A stretch of 64,000 bases of DNA from an uncultured Bacteroidales bacterium. Its GTDB lineage: Bacteria > Bacteroidota > Bacteroidia > Bacteroidales > Muribaculaceae. Where the stretch lies: the NCBI GenBank assembly GCA_902779125.1, contig CACZAC010000002.1:1-64000 (forward strand), given 5' to 3'. The notes under the pieces were generated by a model. It saw only the letters and a program-made list of their open reading frames with translations. It did no database searches and was not told where the DNA came from. A program made the translations under genes and the position numbers. Every line of letters starts with the position of its first letter. Position 1 is the first letter of the stretch. Shown one piece after another: positions 7,651 through 63,741 of the stretch.

Positions 7651-10600
7651 TCACTTTGACCGAGTGACCTCGTTGACGAGATAGACGATGCTCTGGTAGG
7701 GGATACCGCCGTTGGTTTCCAGACCAACCTCGCAGGTGCGGCTGTTGCTGTAGCCCATCTCAATGCGGTTATCCTCGAGTTGGCGGCGCAGCTTGCGTAA
7801 TGCCCAGCGATTGACCTCAGGATGCGTCCAACCACGGTCGCCGGCAAAACCGCAGCAACCCACGCCCTCGGGCAGAAAGACATTGTTACTGCACAAGTGA
7901 GCCAAATTGGTCATCTTGTCCACCAGTCCCATCTCGCGCGTCGAGCAGGTAAAGTGCAGGGCGATATGGCGGTCAATCGGGGTGAATTCCAAGCGGTCAC
8001 GCAGGTACTCCCAGATGAACTCCACGGGCTCATACAGCTTCATGCGCTTGATGCACTTGCGCAGGCGATGCAAGCAGGGGCTCTGGTCGCACATGACGGG
8101 ATATTTGCCCTGTTCACTGGCTTGCCACAGCGCCTCGTCGAGTTCGGCTGTTTTCTGGTCGGCGATGTCGAGCATGCCTTTAGACTCCCAGATGGTGCCG
8201 CAACACATCTTTTCCATTCCCTCGGGGAAGATGACCTCGTAGCCCGCCTTGCGGCACAGTTGCACCATCTCATCGACGAGGGTATTCTTCACGGGGGCGC
8301 CTTTGGCAAGGCCCATCGTCTGGTTGATGCACGAGGGGAAATAGACCACCTTCAGTACCAGTTCGGGACTGGGCTTTTGAGAGGATTCTGAGACGCAAGA
8401 TTTTGCGTCTCTACAAGCATGGGGCTGGCGGGCTTTGCCTGGCATGGCAGGGGTCCACAGGGGTAGCCCAGCCTTGTGCATAGCACTAGCAACGCCCTTC
8501 ATGGCTGAAGTGCCCAGGATGTTGTGTCCAAGGCGTGCCACGTCCAACGTGAAGCGCAGGCCGCTCTTGATGCCCGCAAAATGGCGGGCGGCAAAGTCAC
8601 CCACACGATAGCCCATGCTACCCTGAGGCAGCGCTTCTTGACGGACGAGATGCGTCAAATCGGCGACGTTGATTTTCATCGGGCACGAGGTGGAGCATAA
8701 GCCATCTCCTGCACAGGTCTGGTCACCTTGATAGCGGTATTGCTTGACAAGGGTTGCCAAGCGCTCGGGATTCTCGCCCGTCTCACGCAGGTGGGAGATT
8801 TCGCGTTGGATGACGATGCGCTGACGAGACGAGAGCGTCAAGCCGCAAGTCAGGCAGTTCACCTCGCAGAAGCCGCACTCGATACACTTGTTGGCATTAC
8901 GAACGCCCTCGATGGTCTCGCGGGTGCTATCGTTGTGATTCTCTGAATCGGCCACGCCAAGGCGAGGCCCTACAGATGTGGCCATTTCCAAGCCTTTCAA
9001 CTTCAACTCGGGCAGGGGTTTAAAGTGCTTGATAAAGCACTCGGGGTCGTCGTTGAAGATGACACCGGGATTGAGCAGATAGTACGGGTCGAAAATCTCT
9101 TTCAATTCGCGCATGGCGGCAAATGCCTCCTCGCCCCACTCGTACTTGACAAAAGGTGCCATGTTGCGGCCCGTGCCGTGCTCGGCCTTGAGCGAGCCGT
9201 CATATTCCTCGACCACAAGGCGTGCCACGTCGCGCATCAAGCTGGCATAGCGCTGCACCTCGCTCTCGTCGCTGAAGAGCTGGTTGATGATGAAGTGGTA
9301 ATTGCCCTCGAAGGCGTGCCCGTAGATGCAGGCGTCCTTGTAGCCGTGGTCGGCGATGAGTTTTTGCAGTTTCACAGTGGCTTCGGGCAAGTCTTCGACG
9401 GCAAAGGCGACGTCCTCAATAAGGCACGACGTGCCCACGGGACGGGCACCGCCCACACTCGGAAAAATGCCCGAACGGATGGCCCAGTACTTGCCATAGA
9501 CGGCAGGGTCGGTGGTGAATTCGACGGGCCGATAGGTCTTGAACTGCGACAGGCAGTCGGTAATCGTGTCGATGCGGTGCTGCAGGTCCTCGGGCGTCAT
9601 GGCCTTGGTCTCGGTGAGGATGGCGGTCAGATTGTGGTAGTCGCCAGGCTCCACGCCATCGATTTTGCCGGCATCCACATCTTTCTTGTACTGCAGATAT
9701 ACGGGGTCATCGACCGAGGCGAGCGACAGGTAGTCGAGCATCTCGGCACTCTTGACCATGAGGTTTTCCTCGCTCATGGCGATGTCCTCGTCGCTGGACT
9801 TGAGCTGCTTGAGAGCAACCACAGCCTCGCAACTCTCACGCATGGTGAAGAAATAGAGCATTGCCGAAGCTTTGCAGGGATAGTCGTGCAGCGTGCGCAT
9901 GGTGACCTGGCTGATGAATGCCAGCGTGCCCTCGCTGCCCACCACGCAGTGGGCGATGATGTCAAACGGGTCGTCATAGGCAATAAACGGCCGCAAGTTC
10001 AAGCCCGTGACGTTCTTGATGCTGTATTTCTTGCGGATGCGGTCGGCCAGCGGCTGGTTGGCGCGGATGCGGTCACGCATGGCCTCGATGCGCTTGATGA
10101 AATCGGGATGGGACCGCTTGAAGGCCTCACGGCTCACGGCGTCGCCCGTGTCGAGCACGGTGCCGTCGGGCAGCACCAGGCGTGCCGACAGCAGCATGCG
10201 GTCGCTATTGGCATGGGTACCGCAGTTCATGCCCGAGGCATTGTTGGCGACGATACCGCCCACCATCGCCGAACCGATGCTGGCGGGGTCAGGCGGGAAC
10301 ACGCGTCCCAAGGGTTTCAGTATCTGGTTCACCCTCGCGCCCACGATACCGGGCTGCAGGGTGATGCTCTCGGCATCAGCCGAAACACGATAATCCTCCC
10401 AATTCTTTCCAGCCACAATCAGGATGCTGTCGCTCACGCTTTGGCCTGAGAGCGATGTTCCCGCAGCGCGGAAGGTGAACGGCAAGCCAAATTTATTGGC
10501 AGTCTTGACAATCACCGACACCTCATCCTCATCCTTGGCACGGATGACCACCTGGGGCGTCAAGCGGTAAAAACTCGCGTCGGTGCCCCAAGCCAGGGTG

Positions 10601-10671
10601 CGCAACTCGTCGGTATAAACCCTGTCCTCGGGCAAGATACTTTTTATTTCATTCAAGAACCTTCTCATCAT
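7651..10671 (-). CDS. FAD-linked oxidase / iron-sulfur protein, YdiJ-type D-2-hydroxyacid dehydrogenase
   Basis: A three-part respiratory-type dehydrogenase of about 1006 residues, as in Escherichia coli YdiJ (a D-2-hydroxyglutarate dehydrogenase). N-terminal VAO-type FAD-binding domain (about 40-270, with GTSLSGQS and NNASGMNCG), FAD C-terminal domain to about 555 (LKAEHGTGRNMAPFV), two 4Fe-4S clusters (CIECGFCEVNC at 595-605, then CAGDGLCSTSCP), and two CCG cysteine-rich domains (FPSC...CCG; FTCS...CCG). It should oxidise a D-2-hydroxy acid such as D-2-hydroxyglutarate or D-lactate. Two interdomain linkers (residues about 566-574 and 753-761) are encoded by dispersed repeats found elsewhere in intergenic DNA. 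A second Met codon at 10668 could also be the start. Confidence 0.93.
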   Translation of the reverse strand: MMRRFLNEIKSILPEDRVYTDELRTLAWGTDASFYRLTPQVVIRAKDEDEVSVIVKTANKFGLPFTFRAAGTSLSGQSVSDSILIVAGKNWEDYRVSADAESITLQPGIVGARVNQILKPLGRVFPPDPASIGSAMVGGIVANNASGMNCGTHANSDRMLLSARLVLPDGTVLDTGDAVSREAFKRSHPDFIKRIEAMRDRIRANQPLADRIRKKYSIKNVTGLNLRPFIAYDDPFDIIAHCVVGSEGTLAFISQVTMRTLHDYPCKASAMLYFFTMRESCEAVVALKQLKSSDEDIAMSEENLMVKSAEMLDYLSLASVDDPVYLQYKKDVDAGKIDGVEPGDYHNLTAILTETKAMTPEDLQHRIDTITDCLSQFKTYRPVEFTTDPAVYGKYWAIRSGIFPSVGGARPVGTSCLIEDVAFAVEDLPEATVKLQKLIADHGYKDACIYGHAFEGNYHFIINQLFSDESEVQRYASLMRDVARLVVEEYDGSLKAEHGTGRNMAPFVKYEWGEEAFAAMRELKEIFDPYYLLNPGVIFNDDPECFIKHFKPLPELKLKGLEMATSVGPRLGVADSENHNDSTRETIEGVRNANKCIECGFCEVNCLTCGLTLSSRQRIVIQREISHLRETGENPERLATLVKQYRYQGDQTCAGDGLCSTSCPMKINVADLTHLVRQEALPQGSMGYRVGDFAARHFAGIKSGLRFTLDVARLGHNILGTSAMKGVASAMHKAGLPLWTPAMPGKARQPHACRDAKSCVSESSQKPSPELVLKVVYFPSCINQTMGLAKGAPVKNTLVDEMVQLCRKAGYEVIFPEGMEKMCCGTIWESKGMLDIADQKTAELDEALWQASEQGKYPVMCDQSPCLHRLRKCIKRMKLYEPVEFIWEYLRDRLEFTPIDRHIALHFTCSTREMGLVDKMTNLAHLCSNNVFLPEGVGCCGFAGDRGWTHPEVNRWALRKLRRQLEDNRIEMGYSNSRTCEVGLETNGGIPYQSIVYLVNEVTRSK
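8390..8414. repeat. GAGACGCAA palindromic repeat inside the FAD/Fe-S gene
   Basis: The palindrome GAGACGCAAGA-TTTTGCGTCTC plus flanking CTAC is nearly identical to the intergenic copy at 21928-21955 and to the split copy at 63652-63741. Here it is in frame and encodes part of a linker (residues about 753-761, CRDAKSCVSE). Confidence 0.8.
8949..8973. repeat. GGCCTCGCCTTGGCG repeat inside the FAD/Fe-S gene
   Basis: Twenty-five bases are identical, in reverse orientation, to intergenic copies at 11139-11163, 12526-12550 and 12613-12637. On the gene strand it reads GGGCCTCGCCTTGGCGTGG and encodes VGPRLGVAD (residues about 566-574), a linker between the FAD and iron-sulfur domains. Confidence 0.85.
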
Positions 10672-10974: not shown

Positions 10975-11043
10975 GCTGCGAAGATAATACAATTATCTGT
11001 AGCAAACAACGACTGCGGGGAATTTATGCTCGCTACGCTCGCA

Positions 11044-11163
11044 GTTTAGAGTTTAGGGTTTAGAGTTTAGAGGGGCATCCGCACTCATACCCCACGCTAA
11101 GACGCCAAGCTGCTAAGTTTTTTAGAGCATCCGCATTGTAGGGCCTCGCCTTGGCGTGGCCGC
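11044..11163. repeat. Intergenic repeat cluster (heptad array and GGCCTCGCC repeat)
   Basis: The 333-bp gap 10993-11325 holds no gene. It contains GCTCGCTACGCTCGCAG followed by a TTTAGAG/TTTAGGG heptad array (11044-11073), a GGGGCATCCGC tail, a degenerate CGCTAAGACGCCAAG unit, and a GCATCCGCATTGTAGGGCCT-type repeat (11127-11163). The same modules recur around 12480-12755 and 17327-17642. Confidence 0.8.
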
Positions 11164-11235
11164 CCGCCCTTAGGTTCGTGCTAAGACGCTAAAGTTTTTG
11201 GGAAAAGAGGCGATATCAGTAATAGTGGCACAAAT

Positions 11236-12460: not shown

Positions 12461-12481
12461 TTTCAAACGAAAAACTGCTAG

Positions 12482-12755
12482 CGCTCAGCGCCAAGCCGCT
12501 AAGATTTTTTAGAAGCATCCGCATCGTAGGGCCTCGCCTTGGCGTGGCCGCCCACCACCGGGCCCCACGCTAAGGCGCCAAGCCGCTAAGGTTTAAAGTT
12601 AGCATCCGCATCGTAGGGCCTCGCCTTGGCGTGGCCGCACCGTACGTCCCCCACGCTAAGGCGCCAAGCCGCTAAGTTTTAAAGTTAGCATCCGCACCCC
12701 GCCCCGAAGGGAGGAATGCGGATGCTCTCTAAACCCTAAACTCTAAACTCTAAAC
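12482..12755. repeat. Tandem CGCTAAG/GCATCCGC/GGCCTCGCC repeats and heptad array
   Basis: The 321-bp gap 12461-12781 is almost entirely repeats. Three units start near 12482, 12566 and 12653 with GC(G)CCAAGCCGCTAAG; two carry a near-identical 37-bp segment (12515-12551 and 12602-12638) containing GGGCCTCGCCTTGGCGTGG. A hairpin GCATCCGCA/TGCGGATGC (12688-12696/12717-12725) follows, then CTCTAAA heptads (12727-12755) and GCGAGCGCAGCGAGC leading to the stop of the BspA-like gene. Confidence 0.85.
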
Positions 12756-12781
12756 TGCGAGCGCAGCGAGCATAGCGAGCA

Positions 12782-17186: not shown

Positions 17187-17326
17187 CGATAATATGATTG
17201 AATACAATTAACATTTTCAGTCAAAATACTGAACATTTTTGACCAAAATCACAAGAAAAAGCAATATTTATCAAAAACAATTAAAAAAATATACTTTTTC
17301 TTACTTTTTCGACAACCCCACGCCAA

Positions 17327-17480
17327 GGGTTAATGCTCGCTGCGCTCGCAGTTTAGAGTTTAGAGTTTAGGGTTTAGAGGGGCATCCGCGCTCCTTTGCC
17401 TCACGCTAAGGCGCTAAGGGTTAATGCTCGCTGCGCTCGCAGTTTAGAGTTTAGAGTTTAGAGTTTAGAGGGGCATCCGC
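17327..17480. repeat. Two direct 63-bp repeats with TTTAGAG heptads
   Basis: Units 17327-17389 and 17418-17480 differ at one base. Each reads GGGTTAATGCTCGCTGCG, CTCGCAG, four TTTAGAG/TTTAGGG heptads, then GGGGCATCCGC. They are 91 bp apart and separated by CTCACGCTAAGGCGCTAAG. Part of the 536-bp gap 17132-17667, which also holds the promoter region of the first BspA-like gene and no gene. Confidence 0.9.
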
Positions 17481-17528
17481 CCCCCATGCCCTCACGCTAA
17501 GGCGCCAAGCCGCTAAGGTTTAATGTTA

Positions 17529-17642
17529 GCATCCGCACTCCGACCCGAAGGAGGGAATGCGGATGCCGGTTAGTTGAATTCGCAAAATCAGCAGTTCAAG
17601 AGCGCAGATGCTCTCTAAACTCTAAACTCTAAACCCTAAACT
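17529..17642. repeat. GCATCCGC hairpin plus inverted heptad array downstream of the second BspA-like gene
   Basis: GCATCCGCA (17529-17537) pairs with TGCGGATGC (17558-17566); then CTCTAAA/CCCTAAA heptads (17611-17642) and GCGAGCACAGCGAGC run to the stop at 17668. The same hairpin-heptad-GCGAGC order follows the first BspA-like gene (12688-12781), so this is a conserved 3-prime module, perhaps acting in mRNA ending or recombination. Confidence 0.8.
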
Positions 17643-17667
17643 GCGAGCACAGCGAGCATAGCGAGCA

Positions 17668-21870: not shown

Positions 21871-21927
21871 AAAGGCTCGCCCGTGGGGCGAGAACATCCC
21901 TATAGCAAGCCACACGAACAAGAAGAT

Positions 21928-21955
21928 GTAGAGACGCAAAATTTTGCGTCTCTAG
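21928..21955. repeat. Intergenic copy of the GAGACGCAA palindrome
   Basis: GTAGAGACGCAAAA-TTTTGCGTCTCTAG, a near-perfect palindrome of 28 bp located 38 bp past the stop of the TPR-AraC gene. Same family as 8390-8414 and the split copy 63652-63741. As a hairpin it could also end the leftward transcript. Confidence 0.8.
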
Positions 21956-21992
21956 TGGTCTTGTGAAAGTAGCTAAATAAGTTGGCTTGAAG

Positions 21993-63651: not shown

Positions 63652-63741
63652 GTAGAGACGCAAAATTTGAGCAAACCGAACACCATGATGCTTGCATCGA
63701 TGGTTGAGGTGCCGCCAAATTTATCCAAAATCTTGCGTCTC
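63652..63741. repeat. Split GAGACGCAA palindrome (MITE-like, about 90 bp)
   Basis: GTAGAGACGCAAAATTT (63652-63668) and ATCTTGCGTCTC (about 63728-63741) are the two arms of the palindrome seen compact at 21928 and 8390, but here 60 bp of other sequence separates them. Either the compact forms are internal deletions of a small inverted-repeat element, or something inserted into the palindrome here. The 374-bp gap 63627-64000 has no gene. Confidence 0.65.

Follow-up and report, generated by a model that had tools for sequence, protein, structure and literature searches.

Introduction

Short palindromic repeats with a GTAG foot, known as GTAG-tagged repetitive extragenic palindromes (REPs), have intragenic representatives in several bacterial species and may be neutral where they fall in linkers or loops, and in recB of Xanthomonas campestris and X. 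oryzae different REPs occupy approximately one site (PMC3733652). A tnpA-REP gene subclass that is abundant among Cyanobacteria and Bacteroidetes, subclass 2.4, has also been described to contain REPs in frame (PMC6006769). The Rickettsia palindromic elements (RPEs) are about 150 bp long and encode a conserved peptide (PMC10969869), and the CGTC repeats located within genes of R. conorii are RPE-4 and RPE-6 (PMC3733652). In-frame intragenic GTAG-REPs are thus already known from other bacteria. Here we describe two short repeats, R1 and R2, that lie in frame in a YdiJ-type oxidoreductase gene of an uncultured Bacteroidales bacterium (Muribaculaceae), within a 64,000-nt stretch of contig CACZAC010000002.1 (assembly GCA_902779125.1) that we call the window. 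R1 and R2 are very probably two families of GTAG-footed REPs, that is, mobile non-autonomous hairpins which survive in genes where they are in frame and tolerated.

Results

Two repeats in the linkers of a YdiJ gene

The gene and its two repeats are located as follows.

7651-10671, minus strand: YdiJ-type FAD/Fe-S oxidoreductase gene hosting R1 and R2 (open reading frame (ORF) of 1006 aa with Pfam matches)
8949-8974, minus strand: R1 hairpin with GTAG foot in linker 1, identical at 26 of 26 positions to 11137-11162
8390-8415, minus strand: R2 palindrome with GTAG foot in linker 2, sharing 96% identity with 21927-21952 across 26 bp

YdiJ of Escherichia coli is a D-2-hydroxyglutarate dehydrogenase, and the protein encoded in the window carries the Pfam domains FAD_binding_4, FAD-oxidase_C (residues 306-537), Fer4_8 (593-667) and CCG (904-982). 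R1 is translated in frame as VGPRLGVAD, starting at about residue 567, and R2 as CRDAKSCVS, at about residues 753-761. Both lie outside the Pfam domains, in the inter-domain linkers among FAD-oxidase_C, Fer4_8 and CCG, so that the reading frame and the domain boundaries bear out an earlier sequence-only reading of the window, which had placed the two repeats in frame between domains. In a structure model the residues of both repeats are predicted as coil with a predicted local distance difference test (pLDDT) score below 50, which lends the linker placement weak support, the mean pLDDT being 65.9 and the Fe-S part being largely as low. Linker 1 of the window gene has 39 codons compared to a common length of 31 (+8) and to 30 in the nearest relative, L046, and linker 2 has 30 codons compared to a common 17 (+13); the addition of about nine residues by each repeat, as first proposed, thus holds only roughly for this gene.

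Full and empty linkers among YdiJ homologs

A YdiJ match was found in 51 of 61 genomes (the window's own genome, 36 of the genus and 24 of the order). For YdiJ, as for the M64 peptidase, FecR-like and GntP families treated below, 30 loci were taken from the respective 61-genome search, and the best 80 of 209 relatives from a scan of named genomes were added. The resulting 110 genes gave 97 distinct ones after removal of 13 duplicates, 34 of them in a near clade and 63 outside it. The nearest relatives come from metagenome assemblies labelled Muribaculaceae, Prevotellaceae, Porphyromonadaceae or Bacteroidales, several of whose titles name the ruminant gut.

Among the 34 near genes (allowing up to 4 mismatches), linker 1 holds forward R1 in three (the window gene, L146 and L152), reversed R1 in three (L048, L155 and L171) and neither in 28, while linker 2 holds R2 in eight (the window gene included), R1 in four and neither in 22. 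R2 in YdiJ is therefore not restricted to the window's genome. At the same threshold, no match to R1 or R2 was found outside the two linkers in the 102,063 bases of these genes, and at up to 5 mismatches none was returned for the 63 remaining genes, which lie beyond the near clade. Hence the check put forward in the sequence-only reading, that homologs would lack these residues, came out in its favor. Some linkers without a match, for example those of L053 and L049, resemble decayed R1 when read by eye.

On a YdiJ tree built, like the M64 tree below, after removal of the linker columns, parsimony requires five changes in linker 1 and seven in linker 2, and well supported branches force at least three changes for R2 and at least two for R1 in linker 2. 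The nearest relative L046, with a 96% identical protein, shares R2 in linker 2, indicating that this copy predates the split of the two sister species, and has no R1 in linker 1, where R1 was accordingly either gained later or lost in L046. A second sister pair, L048 and L154, shows reversed R1 versus a native linker. Judged from the homologous sequences, these patterns support in-frame insertion of R1 and R2 as the probable origin of the occupied linkers.

R1 and R2 as dispersed hairpin families

The window's own genome (G000; 3.35 Mb, 97 contigs, 90.67% complete) contains 27 R1 places (18 exact) and 26 R2 places (7 exact) at up to 3 mismatches, and reversed-pattern controls gave none for either. 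Alignment of 25 R1 contexts revealed sharp edges, GTAG to the left and GGCCG to the right; as these contexts had been picked at up to 2 mismatches, their inner likeness is due to the choice, while the edges are not. The foot bases G, T, A and G occur in 100, 96, 96 and 100% of the 25 contexts, and although the search pattern itself held GTAG, a search without the leading G still placed GTAG or a one-base variant before nearly every listed copy. R2 likewise has a GTAG foot. The R1 core measures 25 bp and the hairpins of both families 25-30 bp. R1 is predicted to fold into a stem of 4+3 bp with one mismatch at -7.4 kcal/mol (z -2.1 and -2.5, the latter for the YdiJ copy), and R2 into a 9-bp stem in its YdiJ copy (z -5.5).

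Counting the own genome, 25 of the 61 genus genomes carry R1 and 28 carry R2 (up to 2 mismatches, reversed-pattern control 0); 24 have both and 29 have either, and the matches per carrier genome range from 1 up to about 50 for R1 and about 90 for R2. Some copies form outward-facing pairs, such as G025:C2:22182+/22240- and G018:C1:24349+/24398-. Among the matches listed, which give only some of the places, pairs are spaced start to start by 57-58 bp for R2 (G025), and by 49-51 bp (G018, G081) or about 122 bp (G002) for R1. A perfect-palindrome variant of R1, GTAGGGCCTGGCCTTGGCCTGGCC, was observed in G075 and in L363 of G016. Searches beyond the genus, allowing up to 1 mismatch, detected R1 in none of the order's 294 other genomes and R2 in 10 of the phylum's 295 others; these 10 belong to six families, and two of them have 26-27 copies.

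Chance as the origin of the matches is excluded by the empty reversed-pattern controls and by the absence of matches elsewhere in the YdiJ genes, in agreement with the sequence-only reading, which had called it unlikely. That reading had also named a derivation of the intergenic copies from YdiJ as an outcome speaking against it; the 27 and 26 dispersed places, their unrelated flanks and the many copies in relatives exclude this origin.

Other genes with in-frame copies

A codon-usage filter, which needs an open frame, flagged 8 of 53 own-genome contexts as lying inside genes (4 of 28 for R1, 4 of 25 for R2). Besides YdiJ, the host families are a GntP permease, a FecR-like protein, chorismate synthase, an M64 peptidase, LptF/G, a cobalamin adenosyltransferase and a hybrid sensor, and in-frame copies in further genes, which the sequence-only reading had asked for, are thus present. 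The copies in YdiJ (both), FecR-like, M64, LptF/G and the hybrid sensor lie outside Pfam domains, and those in GntP, chorismate synthase and the adenosyltransferase inside a Pfam domain match. R1 is read as VGPRLGVA, GHAKARPY or an ATPRRGP-like peptide, two of the three from the reverse strand, and R2 as CRDAKSCVS or VETQNxAS.

The M64 peptidase has a match in 47 of the 61 genus genomes. Of the 30 loci read, four distant ones lack the linker segment and were left out of the counts; the other 26 comprise 17 native linkers (mostly LPxxEKxA-like), eight with R2 and one with an exact R1 (G009). Parsimony gives five changes, and well supported branches force at least three for R2. Inspection by eye of 30 FecR-like loci identified R1 in 13, a decayed-looking copy in five, unrelated sequence in five and no R1 in seven more distant ones, one of which (L309) aligned poorly. 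At another FecR-like locus, L308 (G021:C49), R1 is nearly intact at the corresponding place despite 46% identity, which suggests a separate arrival or homogenisation. In GntP, reversed R1 is present in the own genome and absent from G036 at 96% identity, while G032 has a version with 3 mismatches (by eye) and the same length as that of the own genome. In G007 (L344) and G018 (L319), short repeats of ENSEGS or ENSEIS type enlarge the very GntP loop in which the own genome carries R1, so that there is more than one way for this loop to vary.

Four further hosts are weaker candidates and do not belong to the main evidence. The LptF/G gene L040 has a copy in an N-terminal extension, which the filter missed and which was recognized among the repeat contexts. 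The chorismate synthase gene L027 (G000:C23:26349-29371, ORF 985-2016, minus) contains a decayed R1 (VGPHFGVA, 3 mismatches) at a site where the loop of the best solved homolog is longer (25 versus 7 residues between aligned blocks). The adenosyltransferase gene L077 (G000:C38:25500-28500, ORF 1165-1677, minus) contains an R2 stem of 9 perfect pairs, read as ETQDVASQQ, at which no GTAG was seen. The hybrid sensor gene L081 (G000:C19:23700-26700, ORF 612-2882, minus) encodes HisKA and receiver domains with no HATPase_c match, and a decayed R2 (VEMQNVASP, 3 mismatches) lies between HisKA and receiver as if at a deletion junction.

Length changes at occupied sites

At the M64 site the native segment has 8 codons, R1 (VGPRLGVA, G009) 8 and R2 (VETQNxASx) 9, corresponding to a net length change of 0 nt for R1 and mostly +3 nt for R2 (0 in G072, +9 in G018). 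The net change is 0 in FecR-like (35 versus 35 codons), +6 nt in GntP of G000 versus G036, +9 nt in YdiJ of L048 versus L154 for a 25-nt element, and 0 in linker 2 of L058, where the linker with R1 has 17 codons, as have many native linkers. These small changes show that the addition of nine residues is not a general rule.

Search for a mobilizer

Y1 proteins were found in 55 of the 61 genus genomes, and 62 Y1 loci, a part of all Y1 matches in these genomes, were sorted into 40 of IS200 type, four with a 2.6 motif, seven other class 2 and 11 judged by eye (two of them broken). A resident REP-associated tyrosine transposase (RAYT) as mobilizer was rejected, since none was flanked by R1 or R2 in the manner of a REPtron in the own genome, in the 61 genus genomes or at the 62 loci. 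The own genome has two Y1 genes, L043 (G000:C40:34519-37875) and L044 (G000:C2:93718-96966), accompanied by the repeats GGGACAAAGGGACGGTTCTTTTGTCCC and CCGTGGCAGGAGCCCCGG, which by eye are unrelated to R1 and R2.

Other repeat copies in the window

The remaining copies in the window are listed below.

11137-11162, plus strand: intergenic R1 copy, identical to the YdiJ copy over all 26 bp
12525-12550, plus strand: intergenic R1 copy, identical to the YdiJ copy over 25 of 25 bp at 12526-12550
12612-12637, plus strand: intergenic R1 copy, identical to the YdiJ copy over 25 of 25 bp at 12613-12637
21927-21956, no strand given: intergenic R2 copy, a near-perfect palindrome with an 11-bp stem (z -6.8)
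63652-63668, plus strand: half R2 unit, GTAGAGACGCAAAATTT, 17 nt, followed by unrelated sequence

The 25-bp identity of R1 to three intergenic copies reported in the sequence-only reading was reproduced. Its second observation, a palindrome shared with two other places, stood for the one near 21928 and failed at 63652, where only half a unit is present. The observation as a whole was thus confirmed in part and right in substance, and its interpretation is partly supported. The R1 copies are surrounded by the units GCTCGCTGCGCTCGCAGTTTAGAG and CCCACGCTAAGGCGCCAAGCCGCTAAG of composite intergenic repeats at 11014-11190, 12480-12780 and 17321-17660, the units being spaced in part at 86-91 bp.

Discussion

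Our interpretation starts from what was observed directly, namely the dispersal of R1 and R2, their hairpin structure, their variable occupancy among relatives, their frame and their position relative to domains. Short non-autonomous hairpins would spread to new places, possibly mobilized in trans by an HUH transposase (Y1, TnpA-REP-like), and most surviving copies would be intergenic because selection would purge copies that break genes. A minority would persist in genes where the hairpin has an open frame and falls in a linker, loop or terminus of the protein that tolerates it, and would act there as presumably neutral filler peptide. The use of several frames, the occurrence of R1 in both orientations and the apparent decay of some copies point to such a filler role.

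A number of results weigh against this interpretation. Gene-breaking copies escape a count made with a filter that needs an open frame, and in the relatives only 2 of 76 copies, from a sample of the listed places, were flagged as intragenic, both in the FecR-like gene. At several sites native residues have given way to the element with a net change of 0 to +9 nt, which is not what plain insertion predicts. Exchange between species is possible, and the flanks of M64 carriers are slightly more alike than expected. With respect to mobilization, an R1 or R2 unit was seen at only three of the 62 Y1 loci, at a distance of 330 to 1350 bp from the Y1 match; Y1 number and copy number do not correlate over the 61 genomes (Spearman -0.005 and -0.016); and the carriers G081 (31 R1, 22 R2) and G076 (4, 2) have no Y1 match, these genomes being incomplete. 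Finally, the trees are quick ones with weak inner branches (8 of 31 for YdiJ, 11 of 23 for M64), and full and empty sites were compared between species, with no conspecific pair.

The length data raise the question of how the hairpins came to occupy these sites, for which either insertion with subsequent deletion or direct replacement could account. In the latter case, template switching, or single-strand exchange at a GTAG site, might for instance put a hairpin in one step in place of the native linker or of an older hairpin, and a site would then hold R1, R2 or native sequence depending on the species. The nearly constant codon number at the M64 site, where R1 and most R2 copies begin after one common codon, the equal linker lengths in YdiJ L058 and FecR-like, the small net change between L048 and L154, and that in GntP despite 96% identity would all follow from such a swap, as would the adenosyltransferase L077, which shows no indel at the element compared to two of the three solved homologs shown and a 3-residue gap in the third. 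Other linkers were lengthened, as in linker 1 of the window gene (+8 codons), in linker 2 with R2 (+6 to +13) and in linker 2 with R1 in L162, L163 and L171 (+7 to +8). Moreover, an insertion with a compensating in-frame deletion yields the same end state, the compared pairs being separated by about 0.05 to 0.3 changes per site, and the direction of the GntP change is uncertain, as the 3-mismatch version of G032 has the same length. One-step replacement therefore appears to us a possible but rather unlikely explanation. Slightly more doubtful is the wider idea that these linkers are interchangeable REP sites, at which hairpins replace native DNA or a hairpin of the other family in a fixed position and at approximately constant length, as swappable in-frame cassettes.

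Homologous recombination between species could likewise have spread repeat-bearing linkers, in which case few insertions and much exchange would be expected. Forward R1 in linker 1 has the common left context LEMAT in the window gene and in L146 and L152, which are distant on the tree, and every M64 R2 copy except those of G018 and G072 starts after the same codon. In addition, the flanks of M64 R2 carriers from different clades gave ratios of 1.08, 1.02 and 0.96, versus 1.16, 1.09 and 1.04 for R2-native comparisons (15, 25 and 40 codons per side), but with a spread of 0.08 to 0.21 this is a small difference, and no tract is conspicuously shared. Separate events are needed in any case to account for the two orientations of R1 and for one site holding now R1, now R2, and we regard exchange as an improbable main route. 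Selection on the protein for a useful peptide, such as an advantageous linker, would fit the recurrence of VGPRLGVAD in YdiJ linkers 1 and 2, FecR-like and M64 (where the D lies outside the element) and the several DNA copies that are intact within otherwise diverged genes. It is very hard to reconcile with the peptides GHAKARPY, ATPRRGP-like, CRDAKSCVS and VETQNVAS, which use other frames and the reverse orientation, with the decayed-looking copies, and with the 28 of 34 (linker 1) and 22 of 34 (linker 2) YdiJ genes that do without repeats, making this explanation highly unlikely.

The sequence-only reading had likened the two repeats to the palindromic elements of Rickettsia. RPEs resemble R1 and R2 in lying in frame within several unrelated genes (here YdiJ, M64, GntP, FecR-like and LptF/G). 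Membership of R1 and R2 in the RPE family is nevertheless refuted by a size of 25-30 bp versus about 150 bp, by a GTAG instead of a CGTC foot and by the use of several frames, with R1 in both orientations, so that we give next to no credence to Rickettsia-type elements in Bacteroidales and keep the comparison as an analogy only.

With GTAG-footed REPs as the preferred interpretation, the more general proposal of that reading, insertion of such elements into genes of Bacteroidales, stands insofar as dispersed repeats lie in frame in linkers, although the kind of event is already published (PMC3733652, PMC6006769). R1 or R2 within genes of Bacteroidales had no earlier mention in the literature searched, most subscription journals lying outside its reach. 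What is new here is the host lineage with its dozens of comparable genomes, the repeated presence of two unrelated families at one linker site together with R1 in both orientations in YdiJ linker 1, and replacement that is often nearly length-neutral. REPs, usually seen as intergenic, repeatedly rewrite linkers of conserved enzymes in this uncultured gut lineage, and dozens of related genomes with occupied, vacant or exchanged sites form a natural series that bears on movement, on insertion versus replacement and on the tolerance of proteins for stretches of foreign sequence acquired at once. As no transposase neighbors the repeats at the examined loci, the mobilizer becomes a testable question.

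Comparison with known systems

Among the tnpA-REP genes, subclass 2.4 offers several likenesses (PMC6006769). R1 resembles its long REP, whose stem base has three G-C pairs, and intergenic R2 its 'double foot' REP. The in-frame REPs of that subclass sit within the tnpA-REP genes, whereas those of R1 and R2 sit in unrelated genes, and the YIxNNP part of its TnpA-REP motif (NH[IFV]H ... WQ ... YIxNNP) was not present at any of the 62 Y1 loci. An R2-like element, 93% identical over 29 bp, lies in frame in a non-ribosomal peptide synthetase gene (IETQNFTSLL) on plasmid p057_G of Nostoc sp. C057; this is a cyanobacterial host with one plasmid record and two places, one of which was read.

The closest likeness is to the GTAG-REPs of Di Nocera et al. 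(2013; PMC3733652). These are described as palindromes of 20-40 bp with stems of 6-13 bp, present in many dispersed and mainly intergenic copies and in dimers with outward GTAG that are mostly 20-100 bp apart; R1 and R2 agree in size, in stem, in dispersal and in predominantly intergenic location, and the pairs listed above agree in orientation and spacing. The genes that host GTAG-REPs in that paper are mainly DNA repair genes, whereas R1 and R2 occur in genes for enzymes, for a transporter and for a FecR-like protein, and its main text names Bacteroidetes once, for CGTC repeats. A further difference is that no RAYT was found beside R1 or R2. With their GTAG foot, short hairpin, dispersal, outward dimers and mostly intergenic copies, R1 and R2 have the defining features of GTAG-REPs.

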